This document shows positions 27,308 through 48,635 of a DNA stretch of 64,000 nt, piece by piece. The notes under the pieces were generated by a model, which worked only from the letters and a program-made list of their open reading frames with translations, ran no database searches and was not told the DNA's origin. The position numbers and the translations under genes were made by a program. Source of the stretch: Bacteriovoracaceae bacterium (lineage in GTDB: Bacteria > Bdellovibrionota > Bacteriovoracia > Bacteriovoracales > Bacteriovoracaceae). Each line of letters begins with the position of its first letter. Position 1 is the first letter of the stretch. The stretch is taken from positions 62,001 through 126,000 of the forward strand of contig JAMPXB010000001.1 in assembly GCA_023701435.1 (NCBI GenBank). The letters run 5' to 3'.

Positions 27308-27844
27308 ATGAACAAAGAAGAACTTGTTAAACTGGCCTATGTTGCTCACCCTCATGGAATTAAGGGGGAGGCAGAAGTGCGTCTGGTTAATCCTAATCCC
27401 GAAGAATCTATTTTAGATGATGGGATGAAGGTATGGTTATTTCCTACAACGGCCAAATCCAAAATTCATCCTCAGGGTGAACAGTGGAACATTGTTAAAA
27501 TCCGTTTTGGAAATAAAGTCATTTGTCAGCTCGAAGGCATTAAAGATCGTACTCACTTAGAGTCGCTCATTCCTTTTGAAATCTATCTAGCGCGCGAAGA
27601 GTTTCCTGAGCCGGAAGATGATGAGGTTTACCTGATCGACATGATTGATATGACAGCGGTGAGTGAAACTGGCGAAACTTTGGGTAAAGTTGAGAGCTTT
27701 TCCGACAATGGTATGCAGTACCTTTTGAACATTCGTATGAATTCGGGAGAGGTCATGACACTGCCATTCGTGGACGCTTTCTTTCCGGACGTGGATGTAG
27801 AAAAAAAAGAGGTGGTCATGATTCTTCCGGAGTATTCGGAGTGA
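27308..27844 (+). CDS. rimM: Ribosome maturation factor RimM
   Basis: AYVAHPHGIKGEAEVR; PRC-barrel C-terminus; position upstream of trmD. Confidence 0.94.
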   Translation: MNKEELVKLAYVAHPHGIKGEAEVRLVNPNPEESILDDGMKVWLFPTTAKSKIHPQGEQWNIVKIRFGNKVICQLEGIKDRTHLESLIPFEIYLAREEFPEPEDDEVYLIDMIDMTAVSETGETLGKVESFSDNGMQYLLNIRMNSGEVMTLPFVDAFFPDVDVEKKEVVMILPEYSE

Positions 27845-28575
27845 TCAAGAAGATCTGGATTCTTACTCTCTTTCCAGAATATTTTAAACCTCTCCTTGAA
27901 TGCGGTATCTCGGGTGCGGCCTTTAGAGGTGAGCGCAGTGACTCTGTAAAATTCGAAATTAATTTTGTTAACATTCGTGATTATTCGACTACCAAGTACC
28001 GCAGTGTGGATGATACCCCTTTTGGTGGCGGTCCTGGCATGGTGATGAGGGCCGACATTCTTAGGGATGCTCTAGTGAAGGGCGTGGTTGATGCTGGCGC
28101 CTACAATGGTCTTGATAAGCTTCAGGTGATTTATACTTCTCCTCGAGGGAGAGTCTGGAATAATAAAGTGGCCCGGGAGTTTGGAGCTGAAATTCTGTCT
28201 CACCCGGAAAAAGACCTGGTTTTCATCTGCGGCCGTTATGAAGGGGTGGATGAGCGCTTTCTGCAAAAGTATGTGAATGACTTCTATTCTATCGGTGATT
28301 ATGTCCTGACTGGTGGAGAGTTGGCAGTGATGACCATACTGGATTCGGCCGTCCGTTTTGTCCCAGGGATTCTCGGTAATAAATTATCATCAGAATATGA
28401 CTCCTTTGAAGACGGGATGATTGAGTACCCTCAATACACTAAACCTCAGGAATTTGAAGGGATGCCGGTACCCGAGGTACTCCTAAGTGGGCACCATAAA
28501 AAGATTGAACAGTGGCAGAAAGAGCAGAAAAAGCTCATGACCGAGAAGCTTCGCCCTGACCTGATTAATAAGTAG
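27841..28575 (+). CDS. trmD: tRNA (guanine-N1)-methyltransferase TrmD
   Basis: LFPEYF, DDTPFGGGPGMVMR, CGRYEGVDERF, SIGDYVLTGGELA. Confidence 0.98.
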   Translation: MIKKIWILTLFPEYFKPLLECGISGAAFRGERSDSVKFEINFVNIRDYSTTKYRSVDDTPFGGGPGMVMRADILRDALVKGVVDAGAYNGLDKLQVIYTSPRGRVWNNKVAREFGAEILSHPEKDLVFICGRYEGVDERFLQKYVNDFYSIGDYVLTGGELAVMTILDSAVRFVPGILGNKLSSEYDSFEDGMIEYPQYTKPQEFEGMPVPEVLLSGHHKKIEQWQKEQKKLMTEKLRPDLINK

Positions 28576-28676
28576 ATCTATTCCCTCCGGAATTAGTTTC
28601 CCCTTAAACCCTTATATTTTAAGAATTCGTTAAAACAATTAATAAAGAATCTGCAAGTTACCGATAAGTCTTTAGT

Positions 28677-31600
28677 ATGGGTATAGCTAAACTTCTTTAT
28701 TTATTACTTCTCCTTTTCTTTGTCGCCTGTAATGGGGTTTCCGAAGAAGACGTGGTTGATAATCTCAATCTTGCGGATAACTCTACGCTGGAGATTAATC
28801 CTTCCAATAAGGTACTTTACATTAACCAGACCCAGCAATTCTTGGCTTCGGGTGGAGAGCCACCTTATCTTTTTACCTTATTTTCAGGCCTCGGAAGTGT
28901 GAGTACGACTGGGCTATATACCGCACCTAATTCACCTGGTCTGGCCACAGTCAGAGTCACTGATGCTAAGGGCACCACTAAAGAAGCCTTAGTGTTGATT
29001 CAAGTGCAAGTGGCACTTTCGCCTAGTTCTCGAAAGCTCAATGTTAATTCTAGTTTTCAGTTTGCCACGACTGGTGGAACTTCCCCTTATACTTACTCTG
29101 TGATTTCAGGCTCCTCGACAATCTCTTCTAATGGGACGTTTACTGCTGCCGGGACTCCGGAAACAAGTAAGGTCAGAGTGGTTGATAGTGATGGGCATTA
29201 CGCTGAGGCCACGGTGGAAGTAGGGGATGGACCGATTATCAGTCCCATAAGCAGCAATATTACAGTCAATTCTACTATTCAGTTCACTTATACTTCAGGG
29301 ACGGCTCCTTTCACCTGGAGCGTGATTACTGGGGGGGGAACTGTTAATAGTAGCGGTCTCTTCACTGCCGCTAGTACATCTGGTGTTTCCACTGTGCGAG
29401 TGATGGATGCCAATGGTTTTTATTCTGATGCTCAGCTCACGGTTTTCAAACGGAAAAAAGTTTCGGCCAGTAATGCTCATACTTGTGTCATGGATGAAGA
29501 TACCAATGATGTAAAATGTTTTGGGATTCGTTTCTATGGAAATATTGGAGATGGCAAATACCAAGTGGGAGATGAAGTTTCCGATATGGGAGACAATCTT
29601 GCGACAGTAAAATTTCCTACGACTTTAACTGCCGAACCTCTACAGATGTCTTCTTCTCGCTATAATAGCTGTGCCATTTTTTCGGATGGTCTCACTCGTT
29701 GCTGGGGTGCCAGCGGTAGCGGACAAAACGGTAATAACACCAACCAAACCGGTACCATTGCTGGTTCTATGGAGGCCTATCTATTGCCAGTTCCCGCCGA
29801 TCTTGCCAATCCGATTGTCGAGCTCGCCCCTAAAAGTAATAGTGATGCTCATCAATGTGGTATCTATCAAGATGGCACCCTGAAATGTTGGGGCCGTAAT
29901 AGTGAAGGCCAGTTAGGTCAGAACTCGACCCTGGCTTATGGATCAAACTATGGTTCTGCCAATCTCTATAATGCGCTTCCTGTGAATCTCGGGCAAACAG
30001 TGCACAAAGTAGAACTAGGCACACTTCACACCTGCGCTATTTTGAATGACCGAAATGTGAAGTGTTGGGGTTATAACGACTATGGACAATTAGGTCGCCA
30101 AGATACCAATACTATTGGTAATGAAGCGGGGGAAATGGAAGCGATCGTCGCATTGAATTTCACCAAAGATATAACCGATATCGCCTTGGGTGACCGTCAT
30201 ACATGTGTATTGGATGCAGATGGGAATGTCTTTTGTTGGGGACGTAACCTTGAAGGCCAGTTAGGTTTAGGTAATACCCTTACTTATAGTAATGAAGCTG
30301 GGGAAAATCCTGTCGCCCTTACCGCTATTCCACTTGGTGTTGGACGAACGGCGCTTAAGATTGATTCTGGTTTTTATCACACCTGCGCACTGTTGGATAA
30401 CTCCCAGGTAAAGTGTTGGGGAAATAATGGTAATGGTCAACTAGGACAGGAAGACGTCTTTAATCGCGGGGATAATCCAAGCGAGATGGGCGATAATCTT
30501 CCATCTATTAATCTAGGTACAGGCCTAGCTGCTTTGGATATATATGTTGGAGGCCATAGTACCTGTGTATTGCTCAATAATGGTAAAATAAAATGTTGGG
30601 GAAATAATAGCTTTGGCCAGTTGGGGTTAGGTCTTGATCATCGCTTACAACAAGGTGATGCTTTAGGAGAGATGGGAGACAATCTTCCTGAGTTGAACCT
30701 GGGGTCCGGTGTGACTTCTATTCTGCACATGACCCCATTCACTCCAGTGTCGTGTGTGCTGATGGTGGAAGGTGGCAAGAATGTCGTCAAGTGCTTTGGG
30801 GCCAACGATTCAGGTAATATGGGTCTGGATAATGGGTCATGGGGAGATGAGGTTTCCGAGCTTGGCAGTAATCTTTCCGGAGTTGATTTAGGCACATCTA
30901 AAACCATTGCAGATGTTATTGGTGGAACTCATCATACTTGTACTCTCTTTACTGACGGTAGTGGGAAGTGCTGGGGGAATAACTCTTACAATGTGCTGGG
31001 AGCAAACGGTGCAGGAGGGGCCTGGGTTGGCACTGGTGCCTATCATATGGGGAGTCTTCTAAGTTACATTATTCCTGGTAGTGGGGTGACAATTTCCAAG
31101 TTGGCGTTCTCTAGGGAGCACTATTCTGGCTGCGCTATTTTAAGCGGTAACGTGCTTAAGTGCTGGGGCTACAACGGTTATGGGCAATTAGGACAAAATA
31201 ATTATACTAACTATTCTTATATCCCCACCATCCCGCCGATCGATTTAGGTGGGCTTGCCCCAGTGGATGTCTCTGTTGGATATGTGCATTCTTGTGCCAT
31301 TTTAAGTAATGGCACAGTTAAGTGCTGGGGACGAAATAACTTTGGACAGCTTGGAGTGGGAGACACCACAGACCGAGGGGGCGTAGCTGGGAACATGGCC
31401 GCTTTAAGTGCCATTAATCTGGGAACTGGGGTCACTAGCAGTCAGATTTGCTCTGGAGTTTATAGCAACTGTGTGAAGACAAGTTCTGGGCAGGTTAAAT
31501 GTTGGGGGCTTAATACAAGTGGTCAGTTAGGTCTGGGTCACACAAATAATATGGGGGATGGTGCTACGGAGATGGGGGATAATCTGCCATTCCTAGATTT

Positions 31601-31967
31601 GGGTACCAGTAGAACTGTTACCAAGCTTGCCTGTGGTTCTTATCATGTCTGTGCTATCCTGGATAACAAGAAAGTTAAATGCTGGGGCGCTAATGGTTCA
31701 GGTCAATTAGGGTATGGTTCAACGAATAATGTCGGACCTTCCGCTTCGCAGATGGGTGACAACCTTGCTTATGTGAATCTTGGAACTGGTAGAACGGCAA
31801 TTGATCTAGTCTCTGGGGCAAACCATACTTGTGCTGTTTTGGATAACAATGATATTAAATGTTGGGGTAGCAATTCCTTCGGTCAGTTAGGTCAGGGCAG
31901 TATCCTGAATTTAGGGGATCAGCTAGGAGAGATGGGAAACAATCTACAGGCCATTGATCTAGATTGA
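28677..31967 (+). CDS. Lipoprotein with three Ig-like repeats and 14 RCC1-type repeats
   Basis: Lipobox FFVACN; three 'F..tGG..PYt..v.sG...is..G.fTa' Ig-like units; 14 'xKCWGxNxxGQLG'-type repeats. Confidence 0.9.
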   Translation: MGIAKLLYLLLLLFFVACNGVSEEDVVDNLNLADNSTLEINPSNKVLYINQTQQFLASGGEPPYLFTLFSGLGSVSTTGLYTAPNSPGLATVRVTDAKGTTKEALVLIQVQVALSPSSRKLNVNSSFQFATTGGTSPYTYSVISGSSTISSNGTFTAAGTPETSKVRVVDSDGHYAEATVEVGDGPIISPISSNITVNSTIQFTYTSGTAPFTWSVITGGGTVNSSGLFTAASTSGVSTVRVMDANGFYSDAQLTVFKRKKVSASNAHTCVMDEDTNDVKCFGIRFYGNIGDGKYQVGDEVSDMGDNLATVKFPTTLTAEPLQMSSSRYNSCAIFSDGLTRCWGASGSGQNGNNTNQTGTIAGSMEAYLLPVPADLANPIVELAPKSNSDAHQCGIYQDGTLKCWGRNSEGQLGQNSTLAYGSNYGSANLYNALPVNLGQTVHKVELGTLHTCAILNDRNVKCWGYNDYGQLGRQDTNTIGNEAGEMEAIVALNFTKDITDIALGDRHTCVLDADGNVFCWGRNLEGQLGLGNTLTYSNEAGENPVALTAIPLGVGRTALKIDSGFYHTCALLDNSQVKCWGNNGNGQLGQEDVFNRGDNPSEMGDNLPSINLGTGLAALDIYVGGHSTCVLLNNGKIKCWGNNSFGQLGLGLDHRLQQGDALGEMGDNLPELNLGSGVTSILHMTPFTPVSCVLMVEGGKNVVKCFGANDSGNMGLDNGSWGDEVSELGSNLSGVDLGTSKTIADVIGGTHHTCTLFTDGSGKCWGNNSYNVLGANGAGGAWVGTGAYHMGSLLSYIIPGSGVTISKLAFSREHYSGCAILSGNVLKCWGYNGYGQLGQNNYTNYSYIPTIPPIDLGGLAPVDVSVGYVHSCAILSNGTVKCWGRNNFGQLGVGDTTDRGGVAGNMAALSAINLGTGVTSSQICSGVYSNCVKTSSGQVKCWGLNTSGQLGLGHTNNMGDGATEMGDNLPFLDLGTSRTVTKLACGSYHVCAILDNKKVKCWGANGSGQLGYGSTNNVGPSASQMGDNLAYVNLGTGRTAIDLVSGANHTCAVLDNNDIKCWGSNSFGQLGQGSILNLGDQLGEMGNNLQAIDLD

Positions 31968-31988
31968 TTTCAGTCTATAATTCAATCT

Positions 31989-32570
31989 ATGAAGAAAAAG
32001 TTAATCTGGCTGTTATCGTTGTTGACCATCACTGTCTTGGCAGAGAGTGATAATTTACCTGTTAAGAAAGGTTTTCACCGCACTTATCTTTCCGCAAATT
32101 TTGGATATGCCACATTGGATTTACCGGTTGGTTCCTATAGCGATCCGGGCGCGTCTTTTGCCGTGGGGTATTTTTTTATACCTAAGCTCGCCCTGGATGC
32201 TCATTATTTTCTCACGCCATCGGCCACTGGTGCCAGCAACTTAAATGGCTTTGGTCTAAGAGGAAGATATTATTTCTGGAATTCAGAAGTGACCTCATTT
32301 GTGGAATACCAGGATTCCCGTGTTACCACTTATGATAAATTTTTTGGTTATGTCTCATTAGGTTTTCTTGATCGGGAAGTGCGTACCAGTTCCTTGTCGA
32401 TCAGTTATTCTGGCTTTGGTGTTTCAGTAGGTGCTGGAATGAAGCTCGATGAGAGAAGTTCCATCGGAGTGGATTTGCAGCGTACGAAATTGGAAAACCC
32501 TTCAGGTTCCGTCATTAAAGAGGGCGCTGATCTTAATTATCTCTCTGTCTATTATTCATATTTTTTCTAA
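31989..32570 (+). CDS. Small outer membrane beta-barrel protein
   Basis: Signal peptide; strand pattern; C-terminal LNYLSVYYSYFF. Confidence 0.75.
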   Translation: MKKKLIWLLSLLTITVLAESDNLPVKKGFHRTYLSANFGYATLDLPVGSYSDPGASFAVGYFFIPKLALDAHYFLTPSATGASNLNGFGLRGRYYFWNSEVTSFVEYQDSRVTTYDKFFGYVSLGFLDREVRTSSLSISYSGFGVSVGAGMKLDERSSIGVDLQRTKLENPSGSVIKEGADLNYLSVYYSYFF

Positions 32571-33161
32571 GAGTGCTTTGGTCTTTAAGTTACTGGGATT
32601 GAGCTCCAGCGATTTGGTGAAATTGCGTTTGGCCTCTTCTTTTTGATTGAGCAGAAGATGGATTGAGCCGCGGATGTCATAGAAGATAGATGTTTCAGGG
32701 TATTTGTTAATGAGTTTATTGGTGACGACCAGGGCCTCTGAGTAACTTCGGGAATTGATGTTGCGGTTAATTTGATTTAAATGTTCGGCGATGTCTTCAG
32801 CAACTTTTGAAATCGATTTACTTTCTTTACTGATCCATTGATGATTTTCCCGCAAGTTTAACTGCACGTCAGTGGAGGTCATGGTGTTGGTTGGAATAAC
32901 GACATTCTCTGTGACATAGCCCGGCTTTTCCACTCTAAGGACACCCATCTTGGAATCTTTTAATTCCTTGCTGCTGATAGAGAAGGGAGTTTCACCGATT
33001 GGTTCATAAGTTTGGGTCTTTTCATTATAAACCGTCACGGAAGCCTTTTCCGGCTTGGTCATGATGGTTAACTTGGAAGAAGTGCTGCAACTAACAAAAA
33101 GGGCCAGTAGGATGATATTTTTCATACTGTTAATTCTAAAGGTAAGCATATAATAGTCCAT
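32556..33161 (-). CDS. Lipoprotein with PEGA-like domain and TPRs
   Basis: LFVSCSTSS lipobox; 'ASVTVYNEKTQTYEPIGETPFSIS...LRVEKPGYVTENVVI' PEGA-like; C-terminal TPR (YDIRGSIHLLLNQKEEAKRNFTKSLELNPSN). Confidence 0.75.
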   Translation of the reverse strand: MDYYMLTFRINSMKNIILLALFVSCSTSSKLTIMTKPEKASVTVYNEKTQTYEPIGETPFSISSKELKDSKMGVLRVEKPGYVTENVVIPTNTMTSTDVQLNLRENHQWISKESKSISKVAEDIAEHLNQINRNINSRSYSEALVVTNKLINKYPETSIFYDIRGSIHLLLNQKEEAKRNFTKSLELNPSNLKTKALLEKI

Positions 33162-33203
33162 GATTTTTATTAGATAATTCTTAATTTGAGTTATGATAGA
33201 AGT

Positions 33204-33578
33204 ATGAAAATTTTAATTCTGATGTTGATTGCAGTGGTCGGTAATTCTTGGGCACAGGACTTTGATAAGCAAGTAAAAGATCTGCAGGCAGATGTGGCAG
33301 ATCATAGTAGTGCTCAGGAGCAAGTCATAGGTCTTACCAGAAAAAATCTCGCTCTGGAAATTGAGAATAGAAAACTTAATGAGAGAATCAATGAGCTTAA
33401 CCAGATGGTTATCGAAGCCGCTAGGGAAAAAAAAGATCTTGAGCAAGAGTTAAGTGAAGCTGAAAGGGAATTGGCAGGGCTAGAAAAATCCAATGAAAAT
33501 CTTGAGCGAAACAATCAGTCACTAAAAGCGACTTTGGACAAAGTCCGCAACCTGGTTAATCCTGCCGCAAAAAATTAA
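33204..33578 (+). CDS. Secreted coiled-coil protein
   Basis: Signal peptide MKILILMLIAVVGNSWAQ; heptad-rich E/K/L/N region. Confidence 0.7.
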   Translation: MKILILMLIAVVGNSWAQDFDKQVKDLQADVADHSSAQEQVIGLTRKNLALEIENRKLNERINELNQMVIEAAREKKDLEQELSEAERELAGLEKSNENLERNNQSLKATLDKVRNLVNPAAKN

Positions 33579-33627
33579 GAATAAAGTAACAATTTAAATG
33601 ACCGAATAGAATTATGGAGACATACAC

Positions 33628-34398
33628 ATGTTAACTGTAGTTTTAGGATCATTTATTGCGGTTGGAGTTTTGGCCTATGCCCTTTTAGGTGGAGGTTCTC
33701 ATTCCTACATTGATTTTCCCAGCTTCTTCCTGGTTCTAGGTGGTGCCATCTCAGCATCCTTGATGTCGATTACCAAAGATAATTTTCGTGAACTGTTTTC
33801 CTGTATTAAGACCACTTTTTTAGGTCGCCCTACAAATGAGCGGAAGATTAAAGAAGAGTTGCTGCTAATTTCTAACCAAGCAGCGAGGGCCAAACATCTG
33901 GGTCAGCTCTCACATATCTCTACGATCCCGTTAATCAATAAGGCCACCCGTCTTCTTCAGAGTGAGGTTGACCACAATAACATGCATAAAATTCTTTCTG
34001 AAGTGATTGCCGGAGATAAGTCCATGGCAATGCGCTGTTCAGATATGATTAGAAGCATGTCTAAATATCCGCCGGCCTTCGGAATGATCGGTACTATCCT
34101 GGGTCTTATTGGACTAATGGAAGAAATCAGTCTCTCTGGTGGTATGGAGAAAATCGGGGGCAAGATGGCCCTGGCCTTGATTACGACATTATATGGACTT
34201 CTTATTTCCAACTATATATTGGCCCCGCTATCAGAAGTCATTCTGAACAAGGCCCAGTCTGAGCTTAAAATTAAGAAAATGATTTTAGACACTTTTGTCA
34301 TGATCTCCATTAATCGCCATGATCCTGTTCTGGTGAATGAATTCCTGGGGGCTGACGTGGTTGAAACAGCCTCTTTCAAGGCCAGTGAGGCCGCATGA
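33628..34398 (+). CDS. MotA-family stator protein
   Basis: KYPPAFGMIGTILGLIGLMEEIS and IGGKMALALITTLYGLLISNYILAPL match the MotA core. Confidence 0.92.
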   Translation: MLTVVLGSFIAVGVLAYALLGGGSHSYIDFPSFFLVLGGAISASLMSITKDNFRELFSCIKTTFLGRPTNERKIKEELLLISNQAARAKHLGQLSHISTIPLINKATRLLQSEVDHNNMHKILSEVIAGDKSMAMRCSDMIRSMSKYPPAFGMIGTILGLIGLMEEISLSGGMEKIGGKMALALITTLYGLLISNYILAPLSEVILNKAQSELKIKKMILDTFVMISINRHDPVLVNEFLGADVVETASFKASEAA

Positions 34399-34988
34399 AA
34401 GAAGAAGTGCAGGATCTGGACATTAACATTGCTAAAACTGAGCGAGGGGATGAGTGGCTTACCTCTTACTCTGACTTAGTGACAGTCCTTCTTTGTTTTT
34501 TCATTTTGTTTTTTATTATGAAGGCGAAGATGACTGAAAAAACGGCACAAGAAGCCTTGAATAAAAAAACAGTGGATAAAGTATTGGTGGCCATCGGTGA
34601 CAGTATGGAATCATCAAAAAGTGACAAGAAGCTTGATCTCAGAAGACTCCATCAGTACATCCAGGTGGTGATCAAGCATGAAAAACTTTTCGACGGTGAA
34701 GAGCTCACGATTGATGCCCGTTATCAGTTGGCAAAACTTGCTGAAGCGGCCTTTAAATACACTCCAGAAATTGTTTTGCAAATATCTGTTGGATCGGACA
34801 GAAGTCCAGCCTCTGAAGTAACCAGTATCTCGAGATCTCTGAAAATTAGAAATTATCTGGCAGGGTTGGGTCTTTCAAAAGATTTGATGTCGATTGGAAA
34901 TTTTCAATTGAAGGCCAGTGAAGATTTAACTCAAGAAGAAGTGCATATTCTTATTTCAAGAAATATTGCGAAATCGGAAGAACTATGA
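34395..34988 (+). CDS. Compact MotB-like stator protein with OmpA-like C-terminus
   Basis: WLTSYSDLVTVLLCFFILFF contains the membrane Asp; C-terminal 'SVGSDRSP...SRSLKIRNYLAGLG' resembles an OmpA-like domain; overlaps motA by 4 nt. Confidence 0.85.
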   Translation: MKEEVQDLDINIAKTERGDEWLTSYSDLVTVLLCFFILFFIMKAKMTEKTAQEALNKKTVDKVLVAIGDSMESSKSDKKLDLRRLHQYIQVVIKHEKLFDGEELTIDARYQLAKLAEAAFKYTPEIVLQISVGSDRSPASEVTSISRSLKIRNYLAGLGLSKDLMSIGNFQLKASEDLTQEEVHILISRNIAKSEEL

Positions 34989-36775
34989 GAATGAAAACAT
35001 TATTAGCTTTGACTCTTTTGATGATGACAACATTCGCCATTGCTAAAGAAAATACAGACGGGCTCATTCGTTCATCGATGTATGAGCTGGAAACGCAATT
35101 GTCCCGGACCATGGAAGATAAAATTGTTCAATTCGTAGGCGTGGAAAATATCTGGGTGGCCGTGCATCTGGATGTTTCTTCAGAGAAAATCAAGCAACAG
35201 TTAAAAAGCAGTAAAAATAGTAAAAAATCATCCGTAAAATATGAGGAACTTCCTGGTCTAAATATTTCAGCGGACGGAAATATTGTTCAGGATGATTCCT
35301 CTGAAGAGAAGTTAATTCTGGATGGCTCAAAATTCTCCATTGATCCAGCTCTCCTCTTGAGTAATGCCAACGGAGTGATGGTCACGGTTTATAATAAAGA
35401 CAAGATTGATAAAAAAGTCGAAAGACTTATCCGTTCTCTCATTGAAGATAAAATGAGCGCTTTAAAAACTACCGTTGGAGTGAGTTTTAATTATCGAAAG
35501 GCGAAAGTTTTGGAAACGGCCGATTTAAAAGACGGGAAAAAGATCCGTTTTGACCCCACGTCATTTGCCAAGAGTGTGCATAGTGCTGTTACTGTGTCTT
35601 TCAAAGAATTCATGAATGACAATGTTATTGCACCATTAAAAATCGGTTTTGGTGCGGTGGTTTTTATCTCCCTGGCGGCCTTCGGAGTGATTGGATTTTT
35701 CCTGTTTAGAGCGCTCTCCGCCATTAATGGCAGCTTAGGTGCTCTTTTAAACGCCACTAAAAATTTTGAAACGGCAACGACGCAAGCGGCTTCACCAACT
35801 CAGGCGAGTGATAATGGACATGATAAAACCACAACTCTGCAGTCTGATGCGGTCGATTTACAGCAGAAAATTCTTGATATCTATACCAACTATAGTGAAG
35901 TGGTTAGCAGCTTCTTCATGAACTCCATGGACAAAAAGGAGTTTAAGGATGTTTGGGCCTTAACTCAGGTTCTGGGTGATAAAATCCTCCTGGAAAATAA
36001 AAACATCTGCAGGAACAATAATTTTCATCTCTATAATAAGTTTTTACAAAATAGCATGCACCTGGTGACTTCTGCTGAAGACTTTAAAAGGATTTACCAG
36101 AAGCTCATGTCTCTGATGCTTTATCCTGAGGTGTTTTTCTTAAACAGTATCAGAAATCAGATCAATTCTTTTTCAATGCCATTCTTGTTAAGTAACTTTC
36201 CAAAATTCAATGAAAACGAAAAGCTTGTGGCCATTGAGGTCCTGGATGATTTGAAACTAGCGACCCTGGTTAACAAGGGGCTTGTTAAAACAGAAAATTT
36301 AAATAAGGCCGAAGCCCATCATTGGGGAATGGAAGAATTAAAGGCGATTGATAAAAAGCTAACTTCCATCGCTGAACGGGGCTCTGACTTAAAAGAAATA
36401 CCGCTTCTGAATGTGATGAGATACTTCACCCAATCTCAGTTTGATAGTTTTATCCAGGAACAGAAGCTTAACTCTGCCTATACTTTTGGAAGTCTCTATG
36501 AGGCGAGAAAAGAGGAATTAGAGCAGTTTTTTAAGGGCCTGTCAGTGGAGGAGCTGTGTGCGCTCATTCCGATGCTGGAAGAGGACATGGTCATGAAAGT
36601 CTATGCACTCTTGCCGGAACTTAAACTGGCCCGAGTTAAGGCGATTCCTAAAAATATCCAGGATAGAAGTTTTTCTTTGATGGCCGAGATCTACAAAATG
36701 ATGTGGTCTGAGGAATTTAAAGAGGTACTTGCTGGACGTGCCGTAAAAGCGAAAGCAGGACCGCGGGCAGCTTAA
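34985..36775 (+). CDS. Membrane protein with FliF-like periplasmic part and FliG-like cytoplasmic part (putative)
   Basis: N-terminal signal/TM; 'YELETQLSRTMEDKIVQFVGVENIWVAVHLDVSSEKIKQQ' resembles the FliF periplasmic ring-building region; TM IGFGAVVFISLAAFGVIGFFLF; C-terminal helical FliG-like region; overlaps motB by 4 nt. Confidence 0.55.
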   Translation: MRMKTLLALTLLMMTTFAIAKENTDGLIRSSMYELETQLSRTMEDKIVQFVGVENIWVAVHLDVSSEKIKQQLKSSKNSKKSSVKYEELPGLNISADGNIVQDDSSEEKLILDGSKFSIDPALLLSNANGVMVTVYNKDKIDKKVERLIRSLIEDKMSALKTTVGVSFNYRKAKVLETADLKDGKKIRFDPTSFAKSVHSAVTVSFKEFMNDNVIAPLKIGFGAVVFISLAAFGVIGFFLFRALSAINGSLGALLNATKNFETATTQAASPTQASDNGHDKTTTLQSDAVDLQQKILDIYTNYSEVVSSFFMNSMDKKEFKDVWALTQVLGDKILLENKNICRNNNFHLYNKFLQNSMHLVTSAEDFKRIYQKLMSLMLYPEVFFLNSIRNQINSFSMPFLLSNFPKFNENEKLVAIEVLDDLKLATLVNKGLVKTENLNKAEAHHWGMEELKAIDKKLTSIAERGSDLKEIPLLNVMRYFTQSQFDSFIQEQKLNSAYTFGSLYEARKEELEQFFKGLSVEELCALIPMLEEDMVMKVYALLPELKLARVKAIPKNIQDRSFSLMAEIYKMMWSEEFKEVLAGRAVKAKAGPRAA

Positions 36776-37857
36776 GAAGGGATCTTTCTTAATTTCCCTA
36801 AGTCAGTTCGCGCAAAGCTCGGGAGAATTTGGACCTCATCAATCTTAACTGGATGGATTAAGGTGCCAATCTCCTGAGTATGACTTTCGGCTTCTGGGAG
36901 TGTATAGAGCACGAGCTTCTTACCCTTGCGCTCATCATCTTCCAGTTGAAATTCCATCTTTCCAAAAAGCTTTTTTTCTACCAGATATGAACCCAAAGTG
37001 TTTTTGAGTTGATTCATATTGACCAAATGGCCGGCAATTTTAAATTCGTCACCCAGGCGTCCCAGGTGTTTAAAACTTATGCCCCTAAGTTCTGCGCAGT
37101 CTGAAGTTTTATAGTATCCATATTGGTCACACAGCTCGCTGGCGGTAGTAACTTTAAGGGTATCATTCTCCAAAACAAACTGTAGGGTAAAGAGGGCCTG
37201 ACTCTTCACCAGTAATCGCTGGTTCTCACCAATTTTAATTTGATGAATGGGTAAGAGTTCAATTTCATCTGACTCGGGAGTTTTGGCACTAGCAAGCTGG
37301 GAGCAGACTTCACTCATGCCAAAAGTGCGGATTACGGGCCAACCCAGCTTTAAGGCTTCTTCTTTTAGTTTTGTACTTAAAAGATCCCCGCCCACAATCA
37401 CAAATTTCAGAGCGTCGGGAGCTTTGATGCCCAGCTGGACTAGATCATACAGTTGAGTCGGGACAATGGTCGTAATGGTGGCGTCTTGTATCGTCTTGGA
37501 CCAAACTTGAGGATTCCAAGTACGAGCATCAATGAGCTTGTTGCCTAAAAGATGGGCGCGGGCGAGAACTGAGAGCCCTCCGATGTGGTAGACCGGTAAA
37601 GAGAGCGCCCAGACATCATCTTTAGTCAGCTGAAAATGCTCATTACTAGCGCGGGCATTGGCAAACAGAGCATCGCGCGAGATAGCGTATCCTTTAACCC
37701 CACCGGTAGTGCCGGAAGAGAAAAGAATAAAGTGATGTTTTAAGCTATAGGGTGCCAGACTCGCAAGAATCTTTGGAGCAAGACTCTGGTACTGAGTGTG
37801 ACAAATAATCTGCGGATCTTCTTTGTCAAAATCTATATTGAACATAGGCCCTTCCAT
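36772..37857 (-). CDS. menE: o-Succinylbenzoate-CoA ligase (MenE), short
   Basis: FSSGTTGGVKGYAIS, FGMSEVCSQLAS, RTDLGKLRKIPS; located in a men operon. Confidence 0.88.
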   Translation of the reverse strand: MEGPMFNIDFDKEDPQIICHTQYQSLAPKILASLAPYSLKHHFILFSSGTTGGVKGYAISRDALFANARASNEHFQLTKDDVWALSLPVYHIGGLSVLARAHLLGNKLIDARTWNPQVWSKTIQDATITTIVPTQLYDLVQLGIKAPDALKFVIVGGDLLSTKLKEEALKLGWPVIRTFGMSEVCSQLASAKTPESDEIELLPIHQIKIGENQRLLVKSQALFTLQFVLENDTLKVTTASELCDQYGYYKTSDCAELRGISFKHLGRLGDEFKIAGHLVNMNQLKNTLGSYLVEKKLFGKMEFQLEDDERKGKKLVLYTLPEAESHTQEIGTLIHPVKIDEVQILPSFARTDLGKLRKIPS

Positions 37858-46892: not shown

Positions 46893-47591
46893 ATGCTGGA
46901 ACTAAAACTTATTTCTGAATATCCTCAAGAGATTCTTGCCACTGATGAAGTGGGCCGGGGTCCACTTGGTGGGCCTGTCGTGGTCGGTGCCATTCGTCTT
47001 TTTAGTGAAGACAAAGAGGCCTTAAAAAATCTGTTAAAATTTCTAAAAACCAAGGGCATCAAAGACTCCAAAAAATTGTCTTCCCAGGATAGACTGGCCG
47101 TTTTAAAAAAACTCGGCATCTCATTAAGCCCTTTCAAGCAAAAAGAAGTGATCAGCTTCAAAGGAATTGAGATTAGTTACATTACCTGGGACATTGATAA
47201 TGAAATCATTGATCAGGAAAACATTCTCGCTGCTAGTTTGCGTGGGATGAGAGAGGCGTCGGAGTCACTTTCAAAAGCGAAAAAAAATCAGACGACAGTT
47301 TTGATTGATGGCCATATGAAACTGCGCTGGGGCAAAAAAGAATCTCCCTGGAATGAAATACCGGTTGTAAAAGGGGACACAAAATCAGTCCTGATCGGTC
47401 TGGCTTCCATTATCGCCAAAGAAAAGCGTGATGCTTTCATGAGAGATATGCATGAGCTTTATCCCCAATACGGATTTGGTAAGCACTTCGGTTATCCAAC
47501 CAAAGAACACCGACTGGCCATCGAAGAGCATGGCCCCTGTCCGATCCACCGAAAAACTTTCAAAGGCGTCAAAGAATTCGTCCGGGCTTAA
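46893..47591 (+). CDS. rnhB: Ribonuclease HII, copy 1
   Basis: DEVGRGPLGGPVVVGAI, KGIKDSKKLS, LIDGHMKLRW, KGDTKSVLIGLASIIAKEKRD, HGPCPIHRKTF. Confidence 0.93.
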   Translation: MLELKLISEYPQEILATDEVGRGPLGGPVVVGAIRLFSEDKEALKNLLKFLKTKGIKDSKKLSSQDRLAVLKKLGISLSPFKQKEVISFKGIEISYITWDIDNEIIDQENILAASLRGMREASESLSKAKKNQTTVLIDGHMKLRWGKKESPWNEIPVVKGDTKSVLIGLASIIAKEKRDAFMRDMHELYPQYGFGKHFGYPTKEHRLAIEEHGPCPIHRKTFKGVKEFVRA

Positions 47592-47909: not shown

Positions 47910-48635
47910 ATGATCGAATTAAAGCTTATTTCCGATTTCCCTCAGGAGATCATTGCCGTCGATGAAGTAGGTCGCTCTCCTCTTAGTGGACCAGTGGTCA
48001 TCGGGGCCATCCGGGTGCTGGTTGCAGATCATCAGTCCCTCATCACACTGCTCAGATCTCTGCGCCGGAATGGAGTCAAAGACTCCAAACTTTTAAGTTC
48101 AGCGAGCAGGAAACTGCTCCTGGAAAAATTTCAAATAATACAAATCCCTTTTCGCCAGAAAGGTGCCTTCTATTGGAAAGGGCTGGAGATCAATTTTGTG
48201 ACATGGGAGATGGATCATGAAGTGATCGACTCGGAAAATATTTTTCAGACCTCCATGAGAGGGATGAAAGAGGCGGCGCAATTTTTGAGTAGTAGTGACA
48301 AGACTCGAACGACGGTCTTGATTGATGGGCACATGAAGTTTCGTTGGAAGAGTGAGGCGGAAGCCTGGAAGGAGATCGCCATCATAAAAGGGGATGTGAA
48401 GTCTTCACTGATAGGACTGGCGGCAATTATGGCGAAAGAAAAGCGTGATGATTTGATGAGACAGATGCACGAGCTCTATCCCCACTATGGATTTCAAACA
48501 AATTTTGGATACCCCACCCGGGAGCATCGCCTGGCGATTGAAGAACATGGCCCTTGTCCCATTCATCGCAAGACTTTTAATAAAGTTAAAGAGTTTATAC
48601 ATCTCATGAAAAATAAAACCGAAGAAGTCGGATAA
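47910..48635 (+). CDS. Ribonuclease HII-like protein, copy 2 (GRS variant)
   Basis: AVDEVGRSPLSGPVVIGAI, NGVKDSKLLS, LIDGHMKFRW, KGDVKSSLIGLAAIMAKEKRD, HGPCPIHRKTF; collinear with copy 1. Confidence 0.9.
   Translation: MIELKLISDFPQEIIAVDEVGRSPLSGPVVIGAIRVLVADHQSLITLLRSLRRNGVKDSKLLSSASRKLLLEKFQIIQIPFRQKGAFYWKGLEINFVTWEMDHEVIDSENIFQTSMRGMKEAAQFLSSSDKTRTTVLIDGHMKFRWKSEAEAWKEIAIIKGDVKSSLIGLAAIMAKEKRDDLMRQMHELYPHYGFQTNFGYPTREHRLAIEEHGPCPIHRKTFNKVKEFIHLMKNKTEEVG

Follow-up and report, generated by a model that had tools for sequence, protein, structure and literature searches.

Organization of the locus

A MotA-MotB stator pair that lies next to a protein resembling both FliF and FliG raises the question of whether these genes serve the flagellum or encode a machine of their own. 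As set out below, we consider it likely that they encode a rotary machine of the cell envelope that is driven by ions, has a fused rotor and is separate from the flagellum. The window, i.e. the whole analysed stretch of 64,000 nucleotides, corresponds to bases 62001-126000 of contig C33 in an assembly of 3.6 Mb from a Bacteriovorax-type bacterium of the mostly predatory phylum Bdellovibrionota. Within it the initial annotation had listed four consecutive genes, all of which we found in place on the forward strand: a small secreted coiled-coil protein (33204..33578, ATG at 33204), the stator A subunit MotA (33628..34398), the stator B subunit MotB (34395..34988) and a FliF/FliG-like protein of 596 aa (34985..36775), referred to as X in the following. 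MotA overlaps MotB by 4 nt and MotB overlaps X by 4 nt, as had been noted. The coiled-coil gene is specific to this locus: its signal peptide and coiled coil are evident in the sequence, and it was not seen in the loci of relatives. A match of this protein to DUF3450 was below the cut-off and was rejected, as it probably reflects the coiled coil only.

The earlier description of a minimal cluster proved too narrow, as three further genes belong to the unit. The first encodes a giant lipoprotein of 1096 aa (28677..31967, forward strand) with the lipobox FVAC and RCC1 beta-propeller repeats (Pfam RCC1_2 1.4e-93, RCC1-like domain 2e-95); homologues adjoin the module in the loci L032-L034. The second encodes an outer-membrane beta-barrel protein of 193 aa (31989..32570, forward strand; PF13505 9.9e-7), whose orthologue lies directly 3' of X in nearly all other loci. 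The third, on the reverse strand (32556..33161), encodes a PEGA-TPR lipoprotein with the lipobox FVSC (TPR_2 4.2e-5, PEGA 4.2e-4), and its orthologue lies directly 5' of MotA in nearly all other loci. In the window both the barrel and the PEGA gene are located 5' of MotA, an arrangement unlike that of the other loci, and the coiled-coil gene is extra.

The resulting seven-gene unit spans 28677-36775 and fills the gap between trmD (27841-28575) on its left and menE (36772-37857) on its right. In four congeners (G003, G011, G018 and G009) trmD adjoins menE, with anything from a 4-bp overlap to a spacing of ~41 bp, so the unit sits in the window as a single insertion. The seven genes stand together between flanks that are conserved, which supports the view that they work together. 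Three other congeners carry unrelated genes between trmD and menE; thus the gap tolerates insertions and may be an insertion hot spot. The extra genes in this gap (window 28576-36771; L182, L183, L185) differ between congeners.

Domain architecture of X

Searches with the single sequence of X returned almost no matches, and in Pfam the protein of the window alone had none. A nine-row profile of the family compared to the PDB likewise gave noise only. The signal emerged after members from across the phylum had joined the profile. When a 35-row family profile was compared to all PDB sequences, the best seven matches were FliG, with E-values from 4e-8 to 3.4e-4, and the top match spanned the FliG middle and C-terminal domains. 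FliG_C was also the commonest Pfam family among the X members (13 of 35, best 1.2e-6), and a 15-row X profile matched canonical FliG genes as well, at their C-terminal end.

We then aligned the two parts of X separately with hhalign, using 50 column shuffles with gap columns removed as controls. The N-terminal domain matched the FliF RBM3 domain of the same phylum with E=1.9e-5, and none of the 50 shuffles reached this score. For the C-terminal half and FliG the score was 43.4 compared to a shuffle maximum of 18.3. The crossed pairs (X-N with FliG, X-C with FliF) gave noise, also in the nine-row version. A profile of the N-terminal domain did not find FliF in the PDB, hence the RBM3 assignment rests on hhalign and on the structure.

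An AF2 model of X computed from four sequences had a pLDDT of 59. Its N-terminal domain follows the order alpha-beta-[insert]-beta-alpha-beta, which is that of RBM3, and its C-terminal half is all helical. In a Foldseek search the ranks 1-9 of 350,542 chains were all FliG or FliF, and with only the C-terminal half as query (pLDDT 77) FliG took the first five ranks; each of the Foldseek E-values was above 0.1, so we used them as a ranking in a supporting role.

The model and the alignments place a periplasmic, RBM3-type ring-building domain at residues 25-170 (35057..35494), a transmembrane helix at residues ~222-245 (35648..35719; a hydrophobic stretch within an AF2 helix at 222-259) and a cytoplasmic FliG-like half, comprising the FliG middle and the C-terminal torque region, at residues 290-583 (35852..36733). 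RBM3 follows directly after the signal sequence, and the SctJ-like domains RBM1 and RBM2 are absent from X. Across the family X is 550-660 aa long. In the torque helix of the broad family the position equivalent to R281 is frequently K or R, and the acidic pair is only partly kept. Taken together, the profiles, hhalign, AF2 and Foldseek identify X as a naturally occurring FliF(RBM3)-TM-FliG(M-C) fusion; for the copy in the window the domains were assigned from family profiles and from a model of low confidence (pLDDT 59). The FliF/FliG similarity proposed in the initial annotation was thus borne out. MotA and X of the window and of several relatives often have -AA as their last residues (...EAA, ...RAA, ...KAA), an ending that resembles a protease degron.

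Distribution and gene order in the phylum

Relatives of X were gathered stepwise from the genus, the family and then 369 genomes of the phylum with the 15-row profile. The genomes are mostly draft metagenome assemblies. Within the genus, the first profile detected X in 5 of 26 genomes. In the phylum 119 of the 369 genomes had a match at E<=0.001 (E-values are per genome), of which 70 exceeded 100 bits; the weaker matches include short ones and genuine FliG genes. Judged by these matches, at least 70 of the 369 genomes carry X. Full-length X was not found with the 15-row profile in genus g79, which is represented by many closed genomes and is possibly Bdellovibrio.

Nearly every locus that we examined shows the same order: PEGA/TPR lipoprotein, MotA, MotB, X, outer-membrane barrel. 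The clade of the window has this order, but the PEGA gene and the barrel were not identified in two loci. Among a further 20 loci over many families nearly all show it, with one locus that begins after the PEGA gene and one in which no MotB frame was recovered, and it was seen in other loci besides. The same gene order recurs in about 35 genomes, and with such repetition the block is conserved far beyond chance.

In most loci a giant secreted lipoprotein adjoins the module and its repeats vary: RCC1 propellers occur in the window as well as in L032 and L033, and L034 has a homologue, two of the giant lipoproteins carry laminin-G-like lectin domains, and 5 of 7 others that we scanned carry NHL propeller repeats. 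SprB is a gliding adhesin of Flavobacterium, and weak SprB-repeat matches were seen in the RCC1 lipoproteins of L032 (4690-7685, 3e-5) and L033 (2840-6421, 0.004).

Relation to the flagellum

Pfam scans of the 39 other proteins of the window detected no flagellar families, in agreement with the earlier observation that it holds no other flagellar genes. Neither the window nor the surroundings of the module in about 35 loci showed genes for export, rod, hook, filament or C-ring. The genome has a complete fliF-fliG-fliH-fliI operon elsewhere, along with other flagellar-type MotA genes. In a tree of 72 MotA rows the flagellar MotA proteins form a clade with support 96, to which the MotA of the module does not belong; L265 is the sole exception. 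Evidence that the pair is the ordinary flagellar stator of the strain would have spoken against the initial annotation; the separate operon, the other MotA genes and the tree show that it is not. A small first tree had nested the module within flagellar MotA, next to a stator of the Bacteriovoracaceae; a derivation from that stator was rejected, as the larger tree put the module outside. In L265 (G275) MotAB is inverted within the module and its MotA groups with the flagellar stators, so this stator seems to have been exchanged for one of the flagellar type.

The module could nevertheless be an accessory of the flagellum, with X and MotAB surrounding the flagellar motor as an additional ring or as a second set of rotor and stator, and the outer-membrane proteins tying it to the envelope or sheath. 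The parts of the module are of flagellar origin, and all strong-X genomes that we checked carry flagellar genes. FlhA is missing from only 1 of the 70 strong-X genomes, which is 67% complete and has FliF; a search of the phylum set for a genome with the module and without a flagellum found none. As essentially every X genome is flagellated, the co-occurrence gives no proof of independence. However, FlhA is present in 319 of the 369 genomes and X in only 70-85. Most flagellated genomes thus lack X, and flagella do not depend on the module. Furthermore, flagellar neighbours were not seen in about 35 loci, neither the conserved outer-membrane proteins nor the giant lipoproteins of the surface are known as components of flagella, and X brings its own FliG, which would be superfluous for the flagellar ring. 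We therefore regard an accessory role as unlikely.

Several other proteins with FliG-related domains were also observed. G000 encodes two stand-alone proteins of ~143 aa each with FliG_C only (C30:16238-16555, L144 6155-6586; C21:25407-25724, L145 6306-6737) and a 258-aa protein with a weak FliG_C-only match (C33:150052-150357, L146 5933-6709); the same genome also has a full FliG. A FliG_M-like domain (61.7 bits) was found in a 171-aa ORF (G000:C3:53799-54008, L147 5578-6093), the start of which resembles a KfrA-type DNA-binding protein.

The stator

The initial annotation had called the MotA core and the membrane Asp of MotB clear, and both calls hold. MotA of the window matches PF01618 with 1.6e-18, and its best NCBIfam matches are MotP (2.4e-28) and PomA (3.1e-27), whereas TolQ reaches only 0.004. 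By sequence the stator is thus of the MotP/PomA type and not of the TolQ/ExbB type. MotB matches MotB_plug with 1.4e-10, and in the family alignment all nine orthologues share its membrane Asp (D27).

The type of the stator also bears on whether X rotates at all. X might instead form a ring scaffold or gate, with MotAB energising an outer-membrane process such as secretion, uptake or tethering in the manner of ExbBD, TolQR or GldLM. The barrel and the lipoproteins within the unit would suit such a role, and RBM3 domains also form static rings, as in SpoIIIAG, to which X has a weak match. On the other hand, the cytoplasmic half of X matches the stator-contacting region of FliG, MotA is not of the TolQ type, and neither a TonB/TolA-like transducer nor a transporter was seen in the conserved gene set. 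A non-rotating X is slightly less probable still than a flagellar accessory.

The OmpA-like motif of MotB is readable in relatives, whereas in the window copy the domain is short and degenerate and the protein has no Pfam OmpA match. The MotA of the window sits on a long branch in the MotA trees. These two features, a degenerate peptidoglycan-binding domain and a long branch, may mean that this copy has changed in function. They could also be read as signs of a copy that is decaying or non-functional in this strain, but all seven reading frames are open, the start-stop overlaps are intact and both the Asp of MotB and the conserved channel prolines of MotA are retained, which makes decay very improbable.

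Proposed machine

Returning to the separate rotary machine, we propose the following arrangement. MotA and MotB would form an ion-conducting stator, which the OmpA-like domain of MotB probably ties to the peptidoglycan. X would be the whole rotor in a single protein: the RBM3 domain would build a periplasmic ring, the one helix would span the inner membrane, and MotA would turn the FliG-like half on the cytoplasmic side. The turning RBM3 ring would then transmit torque through the periplasm, first to the PEGA/TPR lipoprotein and the barrel in the outer membrane and also to the giant, often beta-propeller lipoprotein, the proposed surface end of the machine. The sequence analysis shows that X is homologous to FliF RBM3 and to FliG, that the genes are linked in a conserved way, that they were inserted as a unit and that they are distinct from the flagellar set; that X assembles into a ring, rotates, transfers torque and works in the cell independently of the flagellum is what we infer from this. 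A flagellar export gate or filament would not be expected from X, as RBM1 and RBM2 are missing from it and FliM, FliN, export and rod genes are absent alongside.

As the most likely output we tentatively suggest, by analogy to GldLM and Agl/Glt, that the machine moves adhesins on the cell surface, either for gliding or to make contact with prey; it might instead serve prey attachment, secretion or work at the envelope. On balance we lean towards an undescribed class of envelope machine across the Bdellovibrionota, in which MotA, MotB and a fused FliFG would drive outer-membrane proteins and giant beta-propeller surface proteins, and which could provide these predators with the motor that is still missing for surface movement or the handling of prey; for Bacteriovorax-type relatives the module is a concrete candidate.

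Comparison with known systems

The module shares with the flagellar motor (MotAB, FliF and FliG) the stator family, the RBM3 ring domain and the FliG middle and C-terminal region. It differs in that FliF and FliG are fused, and in that RBM1/2, FliM, FliN, export gate, rod, hook and filament are missing; outer-membrane proteins and giant surface lipoproteins are present instead. In the flagellum MotA5MotB2 turns FliG via charged contacts (PMC11481574, PMC6079021).

A natural FliF-FliG fusion outside the flagellum is also found in the Chlamydiaceae. The fusion of Chlamydia has ~330 aa, no SpoIIIAG-like (RBM3) domain and only a FliG-M-like part, and the short list of flagellar genes given for this organism does not include MotAB (Bergeron 2016, PMC4768692). 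X differs, with 550-660 aa that include RBM3 together with the FliG middle and C-terminal region. Engineered FliF-FliG fusions of Salmonella and Vibrio form rings, and the Salmonella fusion is motile (PMC6079021, PMC11481574); unlike X these constructs are artificial and contain complete FliF and FliG.

Agl/Glt of Myxococcus and GldLM of Flavobacterium are ion-driven gliding motors of the 5:2 type that are linked to outer-membrane and surface proteins, and we propose the same for the module. Their stators belong to another family (Agl is TolQR-like, GldLM is described as non-homologous to MotAB) and they have no FliG-type rotor (PMC13104615); the TolQ/TolR-type AglRQS motor in particular is not matched by the MotP/PomA-type stator of the module. 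SpoIIIAG is an RBM3-type ring protein like X, but it belongs to a sporulation channel and has neither a stator nor a FliG part.

A 2025 survey of MotAB evolution places the flagellar-type stators together in one flagellar group, and the passages considered here do not describe a non-flagellar set like the module (PMC12505986). A description of the module was not found in the open-access literature, to which the search was confined, so the priority of our description is not certain.

To our knowledge the flagellar rotor has been described almost exclusively from flagella. The flagellar export apparatus has been reused in the injectisome, and if our reading is true, a stand-alone MotAB with a fused FliFG would be the rotary core reused for another envelope machine in the same way. 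It would also be the smallest natural stator-rotor set for study, with two stator proteins and one rotor protein. As a separate observation, two neighbouring genes of the window (46893-47591 and 47910-48635) each have an RNase HII match.
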